Positions 3,061-27,857 of a stretch of 29,827 nucleotides of DNA are shown in pieces. How positions within the stretch are numbered: position 1 is the first letter of the stretch; every line of letters starts with the position of its first letter. The position numbers and the translations under genes are program-made. Under the pieces are notes generated by a model. The model did not search any database. It was given only the letters and a program-made list of their open reading frames with translations, and had not been told where the DNA came from. The stretch comes from a virus, in IMG/VR virus record IMGVR_UViG_3300032087_000584, positions 1-29,827 of that record; one strand, written 5' to 3'.

Positions 3061-4610
3061 TGGGCGTTCGATCTGCATTCCGCGAACTGTTTAGGCGTGA
3101 GCGGCCTCAGCGCCGCCGTAGTTATGCAGGCGCAAGGGTTAGCCGGCTGACTGCTGACTGGGTGACGAGTGGCACCAGTGCAGACAGCGAGATCAAGTCC
3201 AGCTACAAGATGCTGCGCAACCGCGCGCGGCAGCTTTGCAGGGACAACGACTATGCAAAACAGGCTCTGAGGTCAATCACCAACAATGTGATCGGCCATG
3301 GCATCTATCACCAGTCACAGGTGCGGATGCAACGTGGCGGGCGGATGGACGAGGCAACCAATGCCCGCATTCATCAAGCTTGGCAACGCTGGAGCCATAA
3401 GACCCGCTGCGATGTGAGCGGTCTGCTCAGCTTCTATGACATGGAGCGGCTGCTGTGTCGCAGCTTGGCTGAGTCTGGTGAGGTGTTTATCAGGATTATC
3501 CGCCGACCTTTTGGCGACAGCGGGATTCCGTTCGCGCTGCAGGTTCTGGAGTCGGATTATCTGATTGATGATGATGTCCAGGCTGCAAAGGACGGCAAGA
3601 CCGTCCGCATGGGCATTGAGCGGGATGAGTACCTGCGCCCGATTGCCTACAACTTCTATGCCAACCATCCCGGCGATGTTTACGCCGGCAATGTGCGTAC
3701 TGCGCGCCGCATTCGCGTAAATGCAGAGGATGTCATCCATCTGTTTATCCCTGAGCGCCCAAGTCAGACGCGCGGTGTCACTTGGTTCGCCTCAGCGTTG
3801 CAACGTCTGCACATGCTGGATGGCTATGAGAACGCTGAGCTGGTGCGTGCTCGCGCTAGCAGTGCATTGATGGGATTTATCACCAGCCCTGAGGGTGAAC
3901 TGGTCGGTGATGACGTTGTTGATGGTGAGCGCGTTACAGACTTTCAGCCTGGCGTCTTCAAATACCTGGACCCCGGCCAGAGCGTAGAAGTGCCGCAGCT
4001 GGACGCGCCTGATGGCCAGCTTGAAGCATTTACGCGTTCAATGTTGCGTGCTGCAGCCGCTGGCATCGGGGTGAGCTTTGAAAGCATCAGCAAGAACTAC
4101 AGCCAATCGAACTACAGCAGCAGCCGCCTGAGCCTGCTTGAGGAGCGGGACACATACAAGTGTCTGCAGCGTTATTTCATCGAAAACTTCCACCAAATCG
4201 TGTTTGAGAAGTGGATGGACATGGCGGTGCTGAGCGGAACGCTGAGCCTGCCGGGTTACGAAACAGATCCTGATCGTTATCGCGCAAGCAAGTGGGTGCC
4301 GCGCAGCTGGGAATGGGTTGATCCGCAGAAAGAGGTTGCGGCTTACAAGTCAGCAGTGCGCAGCGGCTTCAAGACTCTTGGTCAAGTCATCAGCGAGCAA
4401 GGCGGTGACATTGAAGAGGTTCTGACGATGCGCCAGGCCGAGTTGGCGATGCTGGACGAGAAGAACATCATCACGGACACCGATCCGAGCGAGGTCAACG
4501 GTGGCGGTGGTGTTCAGCCTGGCTTAGGAATGGGTGCAGTCCCGGCATTCGATGACACTGAGCCGCCGGTATCTGATGAGGAGGAGGTGCAGGAAGATGG
4601 CGACGATTGA
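3060..4610 (+). CDS. Portal protein (lambda gpB family)
   Basis: The protein has 516 residues; lambda gpB has 533. It forms the dodecameric ring at the packaging vertex. The N-terminus is Arg-rich (LFRRERPQRRR), followed by the family's Tyr/Ala/Arg pattern and the helix RNRARQLCRDNDYAKQAL with SITNNVIG, typical of lambda-type portals. The central region with RPSQTRGVTWFASAL matches the conserved portal core. The stretch IGVSFESISKNYSQSNYSS corresponds to the clip/crown part of the family. The C-terminus is Gly/Asp/Glu-rich and probably disordered. The ATG at 3060 overlaps the previous TGA by one base, and the 3' end overlaps the following gene by 14 bases. Nothing looks broken. Confidence 0.95.
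   Translation: MGVRSAFRELFRRERPQRRRSYAGARVSRLTADWVTSGTSADSEIKSSYKMLRNRARQLCRDNDYAKQALRSITNNVIGHGIYHQSQVRMQRGGRMDEATNARIHQAWQRWSHKTRCDVSGLLSFYDMERLLCRSLAESGEVFIRIIRRPFGDSGIPFALQVLESDYLIDDDVQAAKDGKTVRMGIERDEYLRPIAYNFYANHPGDVYAGNVRTARRIRVNAEDVIHLFIPERPSQTRGVTWFASALQRLHMLDGYENAELVRARASSALMGFITSPEGELVGDDVVDGERVTDFQPGVFKYLDPGQSVEVPQLDAPDGQLEAFTRSMLRAAAAGIGVSFESISKNYSQSNYSSSRLSLLEERDTYKCLQRYFIENFHQIVFEKWMDMAVLSGTLSLPGYETDPDRYRASKWVPRSWEWVDPQKEVAAYKSAVRSGFKTLGQVISEQGGDIEEVLTMRQAELAMLDEKNIITDTDPSEVNGGGGVQPGLGMGAVPAFDDTEPPVSDEEEVQEDGDD
4582..4588 (+). promoter_or_regulatory. Strong Shine-Dalgarno that sets the start of the protease-capsid gene
   Basis: AGGAGGT lies 8 bases upstream of the ATG at 4597, inside the last codons of the portal gene. 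It fixes the start at 4597 rather than the earlier in-frame ATG at 4534, which would lie deep in the portal gene. Confidence 0.85.
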
Positions 4611-6984
4611 AGGCGTTGAGATTGACCTGACGCCTACGTCAGGCATGAAGGAAGAGGCGCAGCGTTATCGCGACTGGAAAGCTGACGGCGAAGCGGGCGG
4701 CACTGAAGTTGCAGCACGCAGAGCCGCGCAGATTCTTAGCGGTAACGAACTAAGCGCAGACACAGTTCTGCAGATGAACTCGTTTTTCGCACGCCACAAA
4801 GTAGACAAACAAGCCGAGGGTTTTTCTCCTGGAGAGGATGGCTATCCGTCACCCGGCAGAGTTGCATGGGCAGCCTGGGGTGGAGACGCTGGAATGAGGT
4901 GGAGTAGCGGCAAAGCAGATAGAATCAAAGAAATTCGTGATAGAAGCATGGACACGGATAGGGCCGAGCCTGGTGATTTGCGGGTTGGCGATTTTGTGCG
5001 TTGGAGTGCAAGTGGAGGCACGGCACAAGGCAAGATCGACCGCATTGAACGCGATGGTTCGATCAACGTCCCTGACTCAGAGTTCACCATTAACGGTGAT
5101 GAGGACGATCCCGCAGCCCTGATCACTGTTTATCGCGAAGGTGATGACGGCTGGGAAGAAACAGATGTGCAGGTTGGCCATCGCTTCTCAACGCTGACCA
5201 AGATTGCGGCGTTGCGTTGGCTTGAGGGCAAAACCTACAAACGCAGTGAAAACACTGCATTTGATGAGGTCGAAGAACGCATTTATGACTTTCCGTTTTC
5301 TTCTGAGCAGCCTGTGGCTCGGTATTACGGAAATGAAATTCTCAGCCACGAAAAAGGCGCTGCTGATCTCAGTCGCCTGAATGACGGCGCTCCGCTGTTG
5401 TTCAACCACAACCCTGATCGCGTGATTGGAGTTGTGGAGCGCGCGTATATCGACGACGAAAAACGTCGCGGCTATGCGCGTGTGCGGTTCAGCCGCAACG
5501 AGTTCGCGCAGGAAGTCTTGCGCGACGTAAGGGACGGAATCATCCGAAACGTCAGCTTTGGCTACGCCATCGAAAAGATGGAGGAGAGGAGTGGCGGCGA
5601 TTTTGTCGCTACCTCTTGGACCCCTACGGAGGTCTCGGCCGTTGCAATTCCCGCTGATGCCAGCGTGGGATTTGGTCGCTCCTTATCGGACTCCGAACCC
5701 GAAACCGCTGCCTCGGCAGCAATAACCACACCACCTGTTCCTGAAATGGAAAACACCACCCCTGACATGGAAGTGGTGCGGGCCGAGGCCGTTGAGGCTG
5801 AGCGTTCCCGCATTGCTGAAGTGACCAGCCTGTGCAACAAGCACGGCATGGAAGATCTGGGCCGTCAGCTCGTCGAGTCTGGCCGTTCGATCAATGAAGC
5901 ACGCGCTGCTGTGCTTGAAAAACTCAACGTCAAAGAGGAGCCCGTCAACATGAAGGCCGCTGAAATTGGCCTCACCGAGAAGGAAAGCCGCAGCTTCTCC
6001 TTCCTGCGTGCCATCAACTACCTGGCCAATCCGACCGATCGCGCCGCCCGTGAGGCTGCTGCGTTCGAGATCGAAGCATCTGAAGCAGCTGCTGACAAGC
6101 TCGGCCGCGCTTCCCGTGGCATCACCATCCCCGTGGATGTGATGCGTCGCGACCTGAACGTCGGCACCGCTTCCGCTGGTGGCAACTTGGTCGAGACTGA
6201 GCTGGATTCCGCCAACTTCATTGACCTGCTGCGGAACGCTTCCGCTCTGGATCAAGCTGGCGCAACCGTGCTGACTGGCCTTTCTGGCAACGTCAACATC
6301 CCGAGGCAGAGTGGAGCTGCGACCGCGTACTGGGTTGCTGAGTCCGGTTCACCTACCGAGTCCCAGCAGACCATCGATCAGGTCGCTCTGACTCCTAAGA
6401 CCTGCGGTGCTTTCACCGACTTCAGCCGCAAGCTGATGATCCAGTCCTCCATTGACGTGGAGAACATGGTGCGCACTGACCTCGCTCGTGTGCTGGCTCT
6501 TGAGATCGACCGCGTCGGTCTGTATGGCTCCGGCTCATCCAACCAGCCCCTGGGCCTGAAGGACACCACTGGCGTTCTGACCGAGGATTTCGCTGCTAAC
6601 ACCCCGACCTTCGCTGAGGTTGTGGCTCTGGAGAGCGACGTGTCTGGCGCTAACGCTCTGCTGGGTTCTCCCGTCTATGTGATGAACGCAGCAATGGCTG
6701 GCAGCCTTAAGACTGCCACCAAGGATTCTGGCTCCGGTCAGTTCATCCTTCAAGGCGGTGAGGTCAACGGCTATCGCGCTGTGATCTCTAACCAAGTTGC
6801 AAGCAACGACCTGTGGTTCGGTAACTTCTCCGACCTGATCATTGCTTACTTCTCTGGTCTGGATCTGATGGTTGATCCCTTCACTGGCAGCACCTCCGGC
6901 ACCGTCCGCGTGGTTGCTCTGCAGGATGTGGACATCGCAGCCCGCCACGGCGCGAGCTTCTCACGCGGTAACAACACCCTCTGA
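4597..6984 (+). CDS. Fused HK97-type prohead protease and major capsid protein
   Basis: One 795-residue frame carries several modules. Residues ~17-105 form a helical domain with a conserved Trp/Gly signature ending in WGGDAG (92-97). Residues ~127-195 look like a small Tudor/KOW-type barrel (GDFVRW, GKIDRIERDG, EDDPAALI). Residues ~235-380 are a prohead protease; the probable catalytic pair is H271 (in FNHNPD) and S320 (in RNVSFGY). Residues ~384-450 are charged and helical, like a scaffold or delta domain. From M452 the protein is an HK97-fold capsid (NIPRQ, AYWVAESG, FTDFSRKL and a C-terminal VRVVALQDVDIAARHGASF). An ATG at 5950 with its own ribosome site would give the 344-residue capsid part alone. 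Fused protease-capsid genes are known in other phages; here one gene covers the jobs of lambda C, Nu3 and E. Confidence 0.93.
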   Translation: MATIEGVEIDLTPTSGMKEEAQRYRDWKADGEAGGTEVAARRAAQILSGNELSADTVLQMNSFFARHKVDKQAEGFSPGEDGYPSPGRVAWAAWGGDAGMRWSSGKADRIKEIRDRSMDTDRAEPGDLRVGDFVRWSASGGTAQGKIDRIERDGSINVPDSEFTINGDEDDPAALITVYREGDDGWEETDVQVGHRFSTLTKIAALRWLEGKTYKRSENTAFDEVEERIYDFPFSSEQPVARYYGNEILSHEKGAADLSRLNDGAPLLFNHNPDRVIGVVERAYIDDEKRRGYARVRFSRNEFAQEVLRDVRDGIIRNVSFGYAIEKMEERSGGDFVATSWTPTEVSAVAIPADASVGFGRSLSDSEPETAASAAITTPPVPEMENTTPDMEVVRAEAVEAERSRIAEVTSLCNKHGMEDLGRQLVESGRSINEARAAVLEKLNVKEEPVNMKAAEIGLTEKESRSFSFLRAINYLANPTDRAAREAAAFEIEASEAAADKLGRASRGITIPVDVMRRDLNVGTASAGGNLVETELDSANFIDLLRNASALDQAGATVLTGLSGNVNIPRQSGAATAYWVAESGSPTESQQTIDQVALTPKTCGAFTDFSRKLMIQSSIDVENMVRTDLARVLALEIDRVGLYGSGSSNQPLGLKDTTGVLTEDFAANTPTFAEVVALESDVSGANALLGSPVYVMNAAMAGSLKTATKDSGSGQFILQGGEVNGYRAVISNQVASNDLWFGNFSDLIIAYFSGLDLMVDPFTGSTSGTVRVVALQDVDIAARHGASFSRGNNTL
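5935..6984 (+). CDS. Possible internal in-frame translation product: capsid protein alone
   Basis: GAGGAG (5935-5940) lies 9 bases upstream of an in-frame ATG at 5950, the boundary where the HK97 capsid domain begins (MKAAEIGLTEKE). Initiation there would give 344 residues, a normal size for a capsid subunit. It would help meet the need for hundreds of capsid subunits against few proteases. Lambda uses the same trick for Nu3 inside C. The coordinates include the ribosome site. The product is inferred, and GAGGAG could simply be two Glu codons. Confidence 0.45.
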   Translation, partial: EEPVNMKAAEIGLTEKESRSFSFLRAINYLANPTDRAAREAAAFEIEASEAAADKLGRASRGITIPVDVMRRDLNVGTASAGGNLVETELDSANFIDLLRNASALDQAGATVLTGLSGNVNIPRQSGAATAYWVAESGSPTESQQTIDQVALTPKTCGAFTDFSRKLMIQSSIDVENMVRTDLARVLALEIDRVGLYGSGSSNQPLGLKDTTGVLTEDFAANTPTFAEVVALESDVSGANALLGSPVYVMNAAMAGSLKTATKDSGSGQFILQGGEVNGYRAVISNQVASNDLWFGNFSDLIIAYFSGLDLMVDPFTGSTSGTVRVVALQDVDIAARHGASFSRGNNTL

Positions 6985-23132: not shown

Positions 23133-23495
23133 ATGCTCAAAGCTTTTCTTGTGAGTGGTGTCGCCGTTTCAGCAGCTGCGCTGGCATCTCCTGCTCTCGC
23201 AGACGTTTATGTGAACCCTGAGTTCAACGGTGGTTCCTACGGCGACGATTATCTGGGTGGAACGCTCAATCTGGATGTCGGCTTTGAAGGCTCTTCAGGT
23301 GCCTACAGCTATTACATCCAAGGCGGTCCAGCTCTGGTGATGCCTAACGGTGCCGAAAACGAGGTTGAGTTTGCTGGCAAGTTCGGCGGTTCAGTCCAAG
23401 CATCCGAGAAGGTTTCCATTTATGGAGAGCTGAGCGGCATGACTGGCGATGAGCTTTCGATTGGTACGAAGCTTGGCGCTAAATACAGCTTCTGA
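23133..23495 (+). CDS. Small exported protein, possible outer-membrane beta-barrel fragment
   Basis: The protein has 120 residues. Residues 1-23 form a clear Sec signal peptide (MLKAFLVSGVAVSAAALASP then ALA|DVYVNP). The mature ~97 residues are Gly/Tyr-rich with short alternating strands (GGTLNLDVGFEG, AYSYYIQGGPALV, VEFAGKFGG, VSIYGELSG, SIGTKLGAKYSF). The C-terminus ends in Phe after alternating hydrophobics, as in outer-membrane proteins that use the Bam machinery. At four to six strands it is too small for a full porin, so it may assemble as an oligomer or be a periplasmic/surface protein. It is the last gene before the terminator at 23535. A host origin is plausible. The receptor-modifying or superinfection-exclusion role one might guess is unsupported. 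Confidence 0.75.
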   Translation: MLKAFLVSGVAVSAAALASPALADVYVNPEFNGGSYGDDYLGGTLNLDVGFEGSSGAYSYYIQGGPALVMPNGAENEVEFAGKFGGSVQASEKVSIYGELSGMTGDELSIGTKLGAKYSF

Positions 23496-23574: not shown

Positions 23575-23811
23575 ATGCAAAAGCTTTTCAACGTGATGTC
23601 TGTGGCATCTTTCGTGATGTCAGCAGGCATGGTTGCTGGAACGGCAGTGCTCTACAGCAAGCTGCCATCCATCATTGAGGGCTATAAGGGCAAGATTTTG
23701 GAGAGTGTGGCTGGCAACGTCACCGAGATGATCCCAGGTGAGATTGATGCGGCGATGCCAGAGCTGCCGACAACTACGGGTCCAGCTGTGCCAATCAAGT
23801 CACCATTTTAG
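23575..23811 (+). CDS. Small membrane protein
   Basis: I chose the ATG at 23575 (78 residues) because GGAG lies 5 bases upstream; the frame upstream of it runs through the terminator. Residues ~5-28 (FNVMSVASFVMSAGMVAGTA) form one membrane segment, followed by an acidic amphipathic region and a Pro/Thr-rich tail. Similar short 'MQKLFNV...' membrane proteins are, from memory, frequent in marine cyanophages. The role is unknown; lysis or virion association are both possible. Its 3' end overlaps the convergent minus-strand gene by 17 bases. Confidence 0.65.
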   Translation: MQKLFNVMSVASFVMSAGMVAGTAVLYSKLPSIIEGYKGKILESVAGNVTEMIPGEIDAAMPELPTTTGPAVPIKSPF

Positions 23812-24043
23812 TCTCAGCCTGCGGCTCAAGTTCTGGTGCATCCCAATGGTCGAGCCATTCACGCAGGGCTTGGCCTGTAGGGGTTGATTTAGGCCAACGC
23901 ACAAACTTAAGAAGCTTGGCCGGATCAGTAAACAGCATTGAACTCTTGCCAGACCTGCAGACGTAAACGAGCGGCGGGCCTTCTCTGTGCTTGGTAACTT
24001 CAATCCAAAGTTCGTTACCTGCTGTAAACCGTTCTGACTTCAT
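23795..24043 (-). CDS. 82-residue hypothetical protein
   Basis: This is a minus-strand gene. On its own strand AGGA lies 9 bases before the ATG, which supports the start. The protein is mixed alpha/beta and charged, with an N-terminal strand set (RFTAGNELWIEVTKHREGPP, LVYVCRSGK) and a helix pair (PAKLLKFVRWP, TGQALREWLDHWD). It has no signal peptide. I do not recognise the family. Its start codon shares two bases with the start of the divergent plus-strand gene (CATG at 24041-24044). Coding is likely but not certain. Confidence 0.55.
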   Translation of the reverse strand: MKSERFTAGNELWIEVTKHREGPPLVYVCRSGKSSMLFTDPAKLLKFVRWPKSTPTGQALREWLDHWDAPELEPQAETKMVT

Positions 24044-24818
24044 GCCGGAGATTCCTGAGATTGGAGTGAATGCAATCGGCGTGCCAATGATCTTTGTCGG
24101 TCAGCCGATACCACCACCTGTTTTACCAGCAGCACCGCCAGTTACGTCTACGCGGTTCCCAGTTATTGATATGCCTGGCTGTGTCCGGGCCAGGATTGCT
24201 GTCGGGAGTGGAACAGAAACGTTTGAGGAAGATCCCCGCGGGAACGTGACTTTGTGCACCGGAGCCGTTCCGATCTTTGAAGCGCCTGACTACAGACCGC
24301 GTGACTTCACTTGGGTAGAGCCACCAAAGGCAGACATAAAAAAGCCGGAGTCGGCGGCTCCGGCCCAGGTTGCATCCCCTCAAGCGTCGGACGGCATCAC
24401 CGACACCCCAAGGGTGCCCAAGGATCCACCGTGCCCACCCTTTGGAGCAAAAGAAATCGGATCGTTTAACAAATTAGGGACAAAGGTCCTTGCCGGTTAT
24501 GAGCTGCAAGAGGGCAAGTGCGTAAAGCTTTGGGATCCTGTGCCTGTTAGGCAGGTCATCAATAACTATGTGCCTGACGCTGGGCCAACGGTGTCGATTG
24601 CGTTGACTGCTGCTTTTGCAACGACTGTGGCGATTTTTGCTAAGCCCATCGCGTCAGTGCTGCAGAAGCTGGCCAAGCCTCTAACTAAGAAGGTAGTGAA
24701 GAAGGTCAATCAGAAGCTTGGCCGTAAGGTAAAACCGGAATCTTTACAGCAGCGGCGGGTGATTCAGCGTCACCGGAATCAAGCCATTCGCGATCTGAGG
24801 CGGGCTCTGGGTAAATGA
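24042..24818 (+). CDS. Pro-rich protein with one membrane segment, cyanophage structural type
   Basis: The protein has 258 residues from ATG 24042; no good ribosome site precedes it, so a later start is possible. The N-terminal half is Pro-rich (GQPIPPPVLPAAPPV) with short Cys-containing motifs (IDMPGCVRARIAVGSG, GNVTLCTGAVPIFEAPDYRP). Mid-protein is YELQEGKCVKLWDPVPVRQ. Residues ~182-208 are hydrophobic (VSIALTAAFATTVAIFAKPI) and the last 50 residues are strongly basic. I recall proteins of this build in T4-like marine cyanophages, where they are annotated as structural or hypothetical. The last 113 bases overlap the convergent minus-strand gene, and a minus-strand terminator lies inside it at 24338-24364. 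Confidence 0.7.
   Translation: MPEIPEIGVNAIGVPMIFVGQPIPPPVLPAAPPVTSTRFPVIDMPGCVRARIAVGSGTETFEEDPRGNVTLCTGAVPIFEAPDYRPRDFTWVEPPKADIKKPESAAPAQVASPQASDGITDTPRVPKDPPCPPFGAKEIGSFNKLGTKVLAGYELQEGKCVKLWDPVPVRQVINNYVPDAGPTVSIALTAAFATTVAIFAKPIASVLQKLAKPLTKKVVKKVNQKLGRKVKPESLQQRRVIQRHRNQAIRDLRRALGK
24338..24364 (-). terminator. Minus-strand rho-independent terminator inside a plus-strand gene
   Basis: The arms GCCGGAG (24344-24350) and CTCCGGC (24358-24364) pair perfectly over 7 bp around a 7-base loop. Six A's lie at 24338-24343, so a minus-strand transcript reads stem then TTTTTT. It lies about 340 bases beyond the stop of the last gene of the minus operon and can end that transcript. Confidence 0.75.
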
Positions 24819-25476
24819 TTTGGTGCGTGTGATCTTGGACGGGAACGGGCTTGAGGACGACATCAGCGCAGATGGAATAAAACGGCGAGGTCTTGGCAAA
24901 GCCGTAGCCACCCTTTATGGCCTCAGAGCAAGCCTTAAGCCTGCCCATCTCGTAGTTAAGGCGCTTGTCAGCTAGCGCCTGTTGGTACAAAGAGTTTTGG
25001 GATTCCGCCGCTTTTAGGCATTGGTTTAGAGCCCTGCGGTCCAAAGGCACTGAGATGGTGGCTGTGACGCCAAAGTTATTGCTGAAGTTTTGCCTGTAAC
25101 CTGTCCTTTGCGGCTTGTAAAACAGGACCTTGCCAGGGTTGTCTGGGATGCCATCGGGTCCGTCTAGTCCCGTCTCTGGGTCAATCAGGCCAAAGTTGTC
25201 GCTATTGTCATAGACCGGCTCTTGATAATACTGATTGTCTGGATTGCCAAAAGAATGCGTAGACGAAACAAAGGGCGAGATGTTTAGCGTTGCTCCATCG
25301 CATTGGATGCCTGACCCGTAAAGGTAACGATGCTGCGCTGAAGGCGTCACCTGCACGGCCTGATTAACCACTGAACCACTGCTATTACTGACGGGCGCTG
25401 CTGTTGCACTGACTTGTGCTGCTGCCGGGGCGGTGTAAAGCAGGCTGAGCAGCAGAGCAGAAGCTGTCGCTCTCAT
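24706..25476 (-). CDS. Exported protein, third of the exported trio
   Basis: The protein has 256 residues. A signal peptide is clear at 1-20 (MRATASALLLSLLYTAPAAA then QVSA). The mature part has SSGSVVNQAVQVTPSAQ, a YLYGSGIQCDGATLNISPFV segment, an Asp-rich central region (DPETGLDGPDGIPDNPGKV), a basic/aromatic strand (YKPQRTGYRQNFSNNFGVTA), and a helical region with regularly placed Cys (ALNQCLKAAESQ, GRLKACSEAIKGG, FYSICADVV). The Cys pairs suggest disulfides, fitting export. I recall a similar trio in T4-like marine cyanophages, where function is unknown. It starts in a 4-base overlap with the preceding gene. Its C-terminal 113 bases overlap the convergent gene. Confidence 0.75.
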   Translation of the reverse strand: MRATASALLLSLLYTAPAAAQVSATAAPVSNSSGSVVNQAVQVTPSAQHRYLYGSGIQCDGATLNISPFVSSTHSFGNPDNQYYQEPVYDNSDNFGLIDPETGLDGPDGIPDNPGKVLFYKPQRTGYRQNFSNNFGVTATISVPLDRRALNQCLKAAESQNSLYQQALADKRLNYEMGRLKACSEAIKGGYGFAKTSPFYSICADVVLKPVPVQDHTHQIIYPEPASDREWLDSGDAESPAAAVKIPVLPYGQASD

Positions 25477-25859
25477 TGGCTAAACGTGCTGGTGGAGTCG
25501 ATGACTGTTTCGGTGATTGTCTCGCGGTCGATGATGACCTTTTCGATCAAGCCAGGCGTGTTGAGGGTCTCGACGAACTGAAATGCAGCACCTGGAACTG
25601 ACTGTTTCCAGCTGGAGCGGCTAGAGAGGTTGATCTTGTTGCCGCTGATTGATGGGCTAACAATGCCGCTTGTTGGTTCAACACCTGTCCCGCTGACTGT
25701 GTACTCAAAACCGCTGCGATAGGACTCCGAGACGATCGACTCCTTGACAATCGTCTTGGACTCAGTGTGAGACGACACGATGCCCTGGCTGAAGTTAGGC
25801 ACGACTGGAACGGCCATTGCCGACGATGGCAACAGCAGCAGAATGATCAGCCGTTTCAC
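25473..25859 (-). CDS. Exported protein, second of the exported trio
   Basis: The protein has 128 residues with a short signal peptide (MKRLIILLLLPSSAMA). The mature part is Ser/Thr-rich and beta-type: PVVPNFSQGIVSSHTESKTI, then YRSGFEYTVSGTGVEP, a WKQSVPGAAFQFVETLNTPG segment and an ending of VIDSTSTFSQ. No catalytic motif is visible. It shares the SGxGV motif with the first protein of the trio (SYSISGSGV), suggesting the two are related or interact. It is coupled at both ends by 4-base overlaps. Placement in the cell (periplasm, outer membrane or virion) cannot be told from sequence alone. Confidence 0.72.
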   Translation of the reverse strand: MKRLIILLLLPSSAMAVPVVPNFSQGIVSSHTESKTIVKESIVSESYRSGFEYTVSGTGVEPTSGIVSPSISGNKINLSSRSSWKQSVPGAAFQFVETLNTPGLIEKVIIDRETITETVIDSTSTFSQ

Positions 25860-26350
25860 CGTGTCGTTAGCTCACTGATGACCTGACCGATTGCACTGGT
25901 GTTAGCTCCACCGGCAGTCACGGTCACAGCACCTGCAGTTGTGATGGTGCCAGCCAGAGTGCCAGCCGTTCCAGCAGCAGTAGAGGTGACATCACCAAAA
26001 GCAGGAACTGCACCGACTGTTGGAGCGGAGGTCGGAATGGTGTCTCCGATGGTGTAGCTGTTGGCAAAGCTGAAGGAGTTACCGCTGGTTGCTTGTGAGG
26101 CGGTAACAGTGGTCAACGCACCAACGCCCGCAGTGTGAGCACCCAGACCACCAACAACGCCAGCAGTGTTCCCGTCGGTAGTTGAAACTCCAGAGCCGCT
26201 GATGCTGTAGCTGTTTCCAACGCGAACAGCGCGAGTAGAAGCACCGCCAACCTCCAGTTGTACTGAGCTTTGAATTTTGTGGGTTAAATCAGCACGAGCA
26301 GGCAAAGCGGCTGCCAATGTGATGCCCAATACCAAAAGTGAGCGGTTCAT
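25856..26350 (-). CDS. Exported Gly/Ala/Thr-rich protein, first of the exported trio
   Basis: The protein has 164 residues with a signal peptide (MNRSLLVLGITLAAALPARA then DLTHK). The mature part starts with KIQSSVQLEVGGASTRAVRV and SYSISGSGV. The rest is low-complexity Gly/Ala/Thr/Val with short alternating strands, ending in TSAIGQVISELTTR. Such composition suits a beta-stacked or fibrous extracellular protein. It has no cysteine. It is coupled to its neighbours by 4-base overlaps. The function is unknown. Confidence 0.72.
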   Translation of the reverse strand: MNRSLLVLGITLAAALPARADLTHKIQSSVQLEVGGASTRAVRVGNSYSISGSGVSTTDGNTAGVVGGLGAHTAGVGALTTVTASQATSGNSFSFANSYTIGDTIPTSAPTVGAVPAFGDVTSTAAGTAGTLAGTITTAGAVTVTAGGANTSAIGQVISELTTR

Positions 26351-26628
26351 TTGATGCCGGCTTTGGAATCTTTGTTCTCAACGATAACGCTCTTCTCCTC
26401 TTTCTTCTTCTGACCGTTGCGACCCACAGAGAGGCCATAGCTAGCAGCAGTTGAACTCAGCAAGGATGCGCTGAAAGTTACATCTATCGACTGCTTGAAC
26501 ATGCCTAGATAATTGGCTGTGATCACGCCCATAGCCCAGATCATGATGGTCAGGCGAACAAAGTCGCCAAGCCATCCATTGCTGTGGTCTTCCTGCTCCT
26601 CTGACTTCGTTTCCTTAGTCTCTGCCAT
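26347..26628 (-). CDS. Small holin-like membrane protein
   Basis: This 93-residue protein is the first gene of the minus operon. The N-terminus (1-18) is acidic and polar. Residues ~20-44 (WLGDFVRLTIMIWAMGVITA) form a strong membrane helix, and ~48-70 (IDVTFSASLLSSTAASYG) a weaker second one. The C-terminus is charged (RNGQKKKEEK). Size, two hydrophobic segments and a charged tail fit holins, but co-transcription with three exported proteins means it might instead be a membrane partner of those. No ribosome site is evident before the ATG. Confidence 0.6.
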   Translation of the reverse strand: MAETKETKSEEQEDHSNGWLGDFVRLTIMIWAMGVITANYLGMFKQSIDVTFSASLLSSTAASYGLSVGRNGQKKKEEKSVIVENKDSKAGIK

Positions 26629-26654: not shown

Positions 26655-26906
26655 ATGGTTGAAGTCTGGGCCGCCGTTGCTGGCGCGTCAATCACAGTGG
26701 CTGGTCTGGGCGCTTCAGGGATTAGCCGTCAAAGCCGTCAAGGTCAGGACTCATTGATCCGACTGACTGCTGCTGTCGATAACCTTGCTGGCCGTCTGGA
26801 TATTTTGCACAACGACATCAAAACAAAAGATATGGAAGTCTTCGCCAGATTGAACGAACTAGAGCGTTCAGTGGCGCGACTTGAGGGTCATACAGATAGG
26901 CACTAA
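26655..26906 (+). CDS. Membrane-anchored coiled-coil protein
   Basis: The protein has 83 residues. A hydrophobic segment (VEVWAAVAGASITVAGLGA) is followed by a helical, probably coiled-coil tail (DSLIRLTAAVDNLAGRLDIL, FARLNELERSVARLEGH). An AGGGG-type ribosome site lies about 8 bases upstream. The build resembles small phage membrane proteins encoded beside lysis genes; a spanin- or holin-associated role is possible. It lies only 26 bases from the divergent minus operon. Confidence 0.65.
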   Translation: MVEVWAAVAGASITVAGLGASGISRQSRQGQDSLIRLTAAVDNLAGRLDILHNDIKTKDMEVFARLNELERSVARLEGHTDRH

Positions 26907-26933: not shown

Positions 26934-27107
26934 ATGCTTTTAATCCTCAAGCCAATCCTGATGACCGCGTGGAAATCACGGGCATTCAAAGAATTGATTG
27001 TGGCGATGTTAGAGCGGATCGTTTCTCAAACCGACAACGACTTGGACGACCTTGCCGTAAAGCATGTGCGTGAAATGCTTTTACCTGACACCAGAGTTGA
27101 CCACTAG
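26934..27107 (+). CDS. 57-residue helical protein
   Basis: The frame runs from ATG 26934 to TAG 27105-27107 and fills a gap between two clear genes. It begins MLLILKPILMTAWKSRAF and contains ELIVAMLERIVSQTDNDLDD, AVKHVREMLLP. I recall small proteins with a similar 'TDNxLDD' segment next to lysis genes in marine phages. It has an amphipathic N-terminus rather than a full membrane span. The function is unknown. Confidence 0.62.
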   Translation: MLLILKPILMTAWKSRAFKELIVAMLERIVSQTDNDLDDLAVKHVREMLLPDTRVDH

Positions 27108-27110
27108 ACC

Positions 27111-27857
27111 GTGTCCGGCATCATCCAAGTGACCCTCTTGGTTATCGCCATGGGCCTCGCGTTGCTGCCGTTTTTTGAGTGGTACAAACCAGACGTGCCG
27201 CATCGCATGGCTGCCATCAAGCAGCTGGAGGATGCTATGCCCCCAGAATTATTGTCCGAGGATGCTGCCTGGTTTCAGGCGTGGAAGGCCAGTGGTATTG
27301 ACCAGGAGGTTTATGTGCCTCGATACTTTCGACAGCTAGATCTGCCCGGCGGCGAACGCAAATGCTTCACGTCGGCCGCGGCCATGGTCGCTGCCTATTA
27401 CAAAAAGGTCGCCACTCAGGAGGAGTACGAGCGGATTAGGGACAAATACGGCGACACCACCTCTGTCTTTGCTCACGTCGAGGCGTTGACGAGCTTGGAC
27501 CTACAGGTCCGCTTTGTTGATAACGCTGACGCAGAAGACGTGATGGAGGCCATCGACGCTGGCATTCCTGTCTTGGTCGGCTGGTTACATCAAGGCAACA
27601 TGCTGCGGGGGGAGCCGCCAATGTGCGGTCATGAGAGTTGCGGCCACTGGTCGGTCCTGCACGGCTATCAATCGCGATATTCCTCAGACCCGAGCTGGCT
27701 TATGACTGACCCGGCTGGGCTGCCAAACATTGAGGAGGGTGGCCACAACCCTGCGCTTTCTGGCTATCGCGTCAGCGTGCGGCAGGCTGCATTTCATCAA
27801 CGTTGGCAAGACCGTGGGCCTAGGAGCGGCTGGGCGATATTTGTCGAGGCACAATAG
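27111..27857 (+). CDS. Membrane-anchored C39-type cysteine peptidase
   Basis: The protein has 248 residues and starts with GTG at 27111, 3 bases after the previous stop. Residues 4-22 (IIQVTLLVIAMGLALLPFF) look like a signal anchor. The rest is a papain-like C39-type domain: VPRYFRQLDLPGGERKCFTS carries a probable oxyanion Gln (Q75) and nucleophile C85, GDTTSVFAHVEAL is the usual mid-motif, and CGHWSVLHGY holds the probable catalytic His (H179). D207 in MTDPAG may complete the site. Extra Cys at C172 and C177 may bond. Similar C39-type proteins occur in marine cyanophages, often as lysis candidates. Cutting of peptidoglycan cross-links is plausible but untested; no classic endolysin is visible in this window. 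Confidence 0.75.
   Translation: MSGIIQVTLLVIAMGLALLPFFEWYKPDVPHRMAAIKQLEDAMPPELLSEDAAWFQAWKASGIDQEVYVPRYFRQLDLPGGERKCFTSAAAMVAAYYKKVATQEEYERIRDKYGDTTSVFAHVEALTSLDLQVRFVDNADAEDVMEAIDAGIPVLVGWLHQGNMLRGEPPMCGHESCGHWSVLHGYQSRYSSDPSWLMTDPAGLPNIEEGGHNPALSGYRVSVRQAAFHQRWQDRGPRSGWAIFVEAQ

Follow-up and report, generated by a model that had tools for sequence, protein, structure and literature searches.

Which function is served by the compact minus-strand operon that runs from position 26628 to 24706 of IMG/VR virus record IMGVR_UViG_3300032087_000584? The whole stretch analyzed (the window; 29,827 bases, positions 1 to 29,827 of the record) belongs to a small cyanosiphovirus, whose terminase is 46% identical to that of S-LBS1 and 36% identical to that of S-CBS3. 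Four genes, referred to here as P4, P3, P2 and P1 in the order in which they are read, encode a membrane protein and three proteins with export signals, and a fifth gene (gp164-like) converges on P1. The unit is real, widespread and common to unrelated phage types. On its gene content, signal sequences, conservation, genome position, late-type promoter (in T4-like relatives) and the lack of an Rz or Rz1 match in ten genomes, the operon may be a late lysis (envelope-opening) module, the best-supported reading, to which an even chance was assigned.

The operon and its products

P4 (26347..26628, minus strand), the first gene, encodes a 93 amino acid membrane protein of DUF6450 (PF20048; Pfam E-value 2.7e-12) and of the phrog_721/2714 family, which corresponds to T4-GC 218. 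It is followed on the same strand by three genes for exported proteins: P3 (25856..26350; 164 amino acids; phrog_564, T4-GC 237, Syn9 gp167), with a signal cut after ...LPARA; P2 (25473..25859; 128 amino acids, GTG start; DUF6322, PF19847; phrog_650, T4-GC 236, Syn9 gp166); and P1 (24706..25476; 256 amino acids; phrog_848/1755, T4-GC 235, Syn9 gp165), which has four invariant cysteines. Every junction is a 4-base overlap: P4 stop and P3 start at 26347..26350 (ATGA), P3 stop and P2 start at 25856..25859 (GTGA), P2 stop and P1 start at 25473..25476 (ATGA). The original prediction called these overlaps identical, which is correct for their length but not for their sequence. Across siphovirus-type loci the junctions read ATGA (95 of 98), NTGA (74 of 88) and ATGA (98 of 100), respectively; many of the loci counted are related, so these and the synteny counts below are not independent.

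The proposed composition of one membrane protein and three signal-peptide proteins was confirmed, P3, P2 and P1 having Sec-type signals. A rule-based scan of 36 window genes flagged P1, P2, P3 and an outer-membrane-like protein, two small proteins weakly, and no head, tail or packaging gene. Among relatives, for which the rule was slightly looser (any upstream start permitted), signal peptides were present in 124/186 P1, 139/182 P2 and 163/171 P3 sequences, compared with 7/173 gp164-like proteins and 11/46 dCTP deaminases (cytoplasmic control). This conservation is consistent with export of the three products.

The SGSGV-type motif reported for two of the exported proteins was found in P3 (SISGSGV) and P2 (TVSGTGV) at equivalent positions, as an SGxGV motif within their common core. 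The two proteins are homologous by profile comparison (hhalign probability 97%, E-value 4e-11) and, on that basis, are paralogues. The AlphaFold2 model of P2 contains two strands of about 33-35 residues (predicted local distance difference test score, pLDDT, about 90), and that of P1 a strand-rich half and a 43-residue helix (overall pLDDT 67). As modeled, P2 is an elongated, strand-rich exported protein that is likely to form oligomers. PDB fold matches to P2, which include stems of pore-forming proteins and phage collar proteins, were weak (best E-value 0.017), had only long strands in common, and were not used as evidence for a pore. A viral fold library returned three matches at E <= 0.001, one to an S37-C6 homologue and two unnamed. 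Two antibody-chain matches for P3 were taken as chance.

Of the two hydrophobic segments in P4, one is clear and the other weaker, and the C-terminal 25 residues were net positive in 9/9 members tested. P4 therefore resembles a holin, which is a small protein that spans the membrane one to four times and has a charged tail. Comparison with curated holin families gave no match, returning only DUF6450 and PHROGs of unknown function, so that 'holin-like' is apt as a description of size and hydrophobicity but not as a family assignment.

A conserved unit across cyanophage types

The gp164-like gene (23991..24818, plus strand; phrog_570, T4-GC 234) converges on P1, and the two coding regions overlap, on opposite strands, by 113 bases (24706..24818). 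Its probable start is ATG at 24042, since homology begins near there; TTG at 23991 was rejected. The protein is rich in proline and has four invariant cysteines; a single hydrophobic segment lies close to its C-terminus, and its tail is basic. Where sipho- and myovirus-type loci have the gene, it is convergent with P1 in 137/139 and co-directional in two, and the convergent genes overlap in 99/100 loci of the siphovirus type (median 113 bases) and in 63/71 of the myovirus type (median 98). Judged by this arrangement, the gp164-like gene belongs to the conserved unit. The operon limits first proposed (24706-26628) hold, but the unit is larger and takes in the convergent gene.

A search for the genes as a unit found them together widely in cyanophages. 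P1 is adjoined by P2 and P3 in 96/96 siphovirus-type and 59/59 myovirus-type loci, and ATGA junctions recur, including at the P4/P2 junction in 4/4 podovirus-type loci; the linkage is therefore not due to chance. Overlaps are few in myovirus-type loci. Relatives of P1 were present in 441-453 phage records, all of them named cyanophages or marine/uncultured viruses, and those of P2, P3 and the gp164-like protein in 412, 386 and 393 records; by comparison, about 469 records named as cyanophage or marine have a T4-like polymerase closely similar to the Syn9 one. Plasmids gave no P1 relative. T7-like podoviruses carry gp164-like, P4, P2 and P1 without P3 (P-SSP7, 042-045; KBS-P-1A; NATL1A-7; P-SCSP1b, 37.8 kb; S-SBP1; S-TIP37). 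The first gene of these podoviral sets (phrog_9426), short and proline-rich, is a relative of gp164-like over a C-terminal segment (hhalign probability 94%), and the P-SCSP1b layout is convergent, like that of the window.

The set equals Syn9 gp164-gp167 and P-SSM4 T4-GC 234-237, with T4-GC 218 as the P4 family; these homologues bear out the earlier statement that T4-like cyanophages have a similar trio without known function (PMC3037559). In that study (Sullivan et al., 2010), T4-GC 218, 219, 234, 235 and 237 were clustered in 15/16 cyanomyoviruses, and functional reasons for the clustering were hypothesized, with no function given. The T4-like form of the cassette thus dates, as a cluster of hypothetical genes, from that 2010 publication. 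What the present analysis brings together, and was not found in the literature searched, are the forms in siphoviruses and T7-like phages, the host copies, the broad conservation of the convergent gene, the paralogy of P2 and P3, the late-type promoter and the exchange with endolysin genes; a search for the Pfam or PHROG family names returned no papers.

PMC3037559 also suggests a mobile cassette, which would have self-spread as its main property, driven by a 'plasmid stability' protein. The cluster is placed differently among phage types, and the protein in question, phrog_568, often accompanies it (window 23575..23811, plus strand; E-value 4e-22). However, the window's phrog_568 is a 78 amino acid protein with an N-terminal hydrophobic segment, and T7-like loci with the operon gave no phrog_568 match; the set includes no recombinase, and near-constant gene order together with translational overlaps indicates selection on the products. 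Self-spread is accordingly considered barely credible. The 'plasmid stability' label, used in records and papers (PMC3037559, PMC9602691), looks unsupported.

Some matches in other genomes, and some annotated starts, need separate mention. Cassette matches in metagenome-assembled genomes (MAGs) labeled Bacteroidetes, Lewinella, Gammaproteobacteria, Formosa, Euryarchaeota, Crocinitomicaceae and Neomarinimicrobiota (L180, L181, L182, L184-L187, L191) lie on cyanophage-like contigs, and were rejected as bacterial or archaeal host genes because their gene order is that of mis-binned cyanophage contigs. Two contigs assigned to cyanobacterial genomes (G071 C5, L212; G283 C12, L213) are T7-like phage genomes with a P operon and were likewise rejected as host genes; contamination, infected cells or integrated phage are all possible. 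GenBank starts of two P1 homologues extend far into P2 (Syn9 gp165, L001 6252-7136; NATL1A-7, L098 5590-6474), and, by homology and signal peptide, the true starts lie further downstream.

Genome position and the case for lysis

In T7 itself, holin, TerS and Rz/Rz1 lie in the interval that the P operon occupies in T7-like cyanophages. In P-SSP7, NATL1A-7, KBS-P-1A, S-SBP1 and S-TIP37 the tail fibre and TerS genes flank the set (gp164-like-P4-P2-P1), which in P-SCSP1b is flanked by tail genes and TerL. Phages without P genes have other genes in this slot: a small membrane-type protein, a C39+glucosaminidase endolysin (phrog_10051), a coiled-coil gene and TerS in S-CBP1, S-CBP3 and S-CBP4; an endolysin (phrog_181), a coiled-coil gene, a small gene and TerS in P60; and a coiled-coil gene, h57 and TerS in Syn5. 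As S-SBP1 and S-TIP37 have the P operon, then the coiled-coil gene and TerS, with the same right flank as the S-CBP phages, the P genes occupy the position of the S-CBP small protein and endolysin. Endolysins of the kinds sought were found in the slot in 0/6 phages with the operon and 4/5 without it. Beyond the slot, phrog_10051, PF01832 and phrog_181 endolysins were absent from all P-operon phages searched except for the window's C39 enzyme, other endolysin families not having been searched. Operon and endolysin coexist in the window's lineage, where h57 and the C39 gene stand head to head with the operon in 80/81 loci.

A [ACT]TAAATA word was present in 39/60 distinct myovirus-type upstream regions (120 bases scanned), always 15-41 bases before P3; it resembles the T4-type late promoter word. 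Pfam searches for Rz (PF03245) and Rz1 (PF06085) gave 0/10 records, window included, and canonical Rz/Rz1 spanins were rejected as the window's system for lack of a match in these ten genomes.

The same placement after tail-fibre genes, in sipho- and T7-like forms, and the late-type promoter would also suit virion or virion-associated proteins, such as parts of a tail tip or appendage. Cleavable Sec signals on three proteins ill suit cytoplasmic assembly, though, and the S-TIM5 record labels neighboring genes, not those of the operon, as virion structural. The published virion proteome of S-SZBM1 is uninformative on this point, as no cassette gene was present in the 129 kb of its genome examined. 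A virion role is considered improbable.

The lysis reading draws on the slot exchange with endolysin genes, the adjacent C39 gene, the late-type promoter, the lack of Rz/Rz1 in ten records, the absence of three endolysin families from the other P-operon phages searched, the conserved signals and the invariant cysteines of P1. In this scheme the operon would act late, against the outer envelope layers of the cyanobacterium. P4 would serve as a small holin-like inner-membrane protein, while P1 and P2/P3 would be exported by Sec and assemble in the periplasm, where disulphides probably hold P1 and long paired strands hold P2/P3. Once the wall had been cut (in the window phage, by the adjacent C39 endolysin), the P1-P3 assembly would disrupt or bridge the outer membrane, the role of Rz/Rz1 elsewhere, with the proline-rich gp164-like membrane protein as a partner. 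Periplasmic assembly, action on the outer membrane and the order of these events are what we infer. The original prediction of a dedicated export or surface system is retained in that the genes form a conserved functional unit whose products bear export signals; but there is no transporter in the set, so these are exported cargo, and genome position points to lysis instead of a generic surface system.

A more specific proposal is tentative: P1, P2/P3, P4 and gp164-like could form a hitherto unrecognized lysis or outer-membrane-opening apparatus unrelated to Rz/Rz1, present in picocyanobacterial phages of all three tail types (sipho-, podo- and myoviruses) and able to change places with classical endolysin cassettes. 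P2/P3 would be its strand-rich periplasmic structure, with predicted paired strands of ~33 residues, or roughly 100 angstroms.

Several observations weigh against a lysis function. P1-P3 have neither a lipobox nor a spanin-type anchor (P2 and P3 contain no cysteine, and the first cysteine of P1 is residue 59, with the signal cut near 18-21). Foldseek searches of the predicted structures against PDB gave no match at E <= 0.001, and no convincing solved relative was found by sequence for P1, P2, P3 or gp164-like. The cassette of T4-like phages adjoins no recognized lysis gene. Nor is the cassette universal, as S-PM2 was reported without it (PMC3037559), and in the T4-like cyanophage S-SZBM1 no cassette gene was found within 129 of 178 kb examined. 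Finally, P3-P2-P1 copies are present, without endolysin or P4, in the chromosomes of three freshwater Synechococcaceae MAGs (L188 6743-9418, L189 6721-8453, L190 6810-9305), where a lethal function would be unexpected. Retention by the host suggests a regulated or changed use, or products that are not lethal themselves.

These chromosomal copies come after a membrane protein and a small secreted protein and have ndhI-ndhG-ndhE-nadK-CYTH-luxR as neighbors, with no recognizable phage genes nearby. A convergent proline-rich gene lies downstream in the two contigs that reach far enough, and may be gp164-like, judging by layout and a weak profile match. Chromosomal P1 is 59-60% identical to P1 of the freshwater myophage DSL-LC03; genes have therefore moved between phage and host, in one direction or the other. 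The copies are rare, any one gene matching at most 6/300 genomes of the Synechococcaceae family, and two of the stronger matches are phage contigs. Chromosomal P3 diverges much faster than its neighbors.

Host copies whose P1 is close to that of a freshwater myophage are a point in favor of a non-lytic, envelope-modifying system, exchangeable with hosts, in which the outer membrane or surface of the infected cell is coated or remodeled by exported proteins, either to block superinfection or to hold the envelope together late in infection. All products being exported or membrane proteins, and the outer-membrane-like protein adjoining the unit, fit as well. The late-type promoter in T4-like relatives, however, ill suits superinfection exclusion, which is usually early, and the exchange with endolysin genes in T7-like phages is not predicted. 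Envelope modification is judged unlikely.

Neighboring genes and comparison with known systems

Upstream of the gp164-like gene lie the small membrane-type phrog_568 protein and, before it, the outer-membrane-like exported protein (23133..23495, plus strand; PF24653 Phage_OMP, phrog_417), a neighbor and at most a candidate member of the unit. An 82 amino acid minus-strand open reading frame (ORF; 23795-24043, phrog_37139) overlaps both phrog_568 and the beginning of the gp164-like gene. This ORF is conserved, many relatives having a homologue, of which S-CBS3 gp26 is one. On the other side, three plus-strand genes follow. The coiled-coil gene (26655..26906; phrog_26178), divergent from P4, encodes a hydrophobic N-terminus and a coiled coil and is a homologue of S-CBS3 gp20, in the lysis region of that phage. 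It precedes h57 (26934..27107; phrog_2738), a small protein also found next to P1 or TerS in T7-like cyanophages, and the C39-type endolysin (27111..27857; PF13529, phrog_10051, lysis), which has an N-terminal hydrophobic anchor. An unannotated h57 homologue lies directly 3' of the P1 homologue 045 in P-SSP7 (L093 6062-6217). Elsewhere in the window, the terminase is followed by genes for the portal, a fused head protease and capsid protein, the tape measure and the tail fibre. The 816 amino acid ORF at 4534-6984 has matches to families of the head maturation protease as well as of the major head protein, which suggests that protease and capsid are fused, like those of S-CBS3 and S-LBS1 relatives.

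Much of the photosynthesis in the ocean is due to marine Synechococcus and Prochlorococcus, and the literature searched did not show how cells of these genera are opened by their phages. The set spans all three tail morphologies, is kept even in the smallest cyanopodovirus genomes (P-SCSP1) and is swapped with endolysin genes, which makes the question testable genetically (S-TIP37, a T7-like phage of Synechococcus WH8109, has genetic tools, and PMC8776855 describes the engineering of cyanophages), and the hypotheticals cluster of 2010 is now tied to a concrete hypothesis.

Compared with Rz/Rz1 spanins of Gram-negative phages, the operon would share the proposed role in the last envelope-opening step, the T7-like genome position and late expression, but it has neither sequence match nor lipobox, and cleavable signals replace the N-terminal anchor. 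The freshwater Synechococcaceae copies keep the P3-P2-P1 order and, in two contigs, the putative convergent gp164-like gene; they differ in having no P4 and no endolysin and in standing beside ndh/nadK/luxR genes. With the T4-GC cluster (Syn9 gp164-gp167) the window shares homologues of 218, 234, 235, 236 and 237, the conserved 234-237 order and the 'plasmid stability' protein, whereas its P4 is the first of four operon genes joined by 4-base overlaps, none of the neighbors scanned matched phrog_605 (T4-GC 219), and the genome, that of a small siphovirus, has an endolysin gene beside the operon. P-SSP7 042-045 and the T7-like equivalents have no P3 and usually run in one direction, while P-SCSP1b is convergent like the window; they resemble it in gp164-like (phrog_9426), P4, P2 and P1, in the 4-base P4/P2 overlap and in having h57 nearby.

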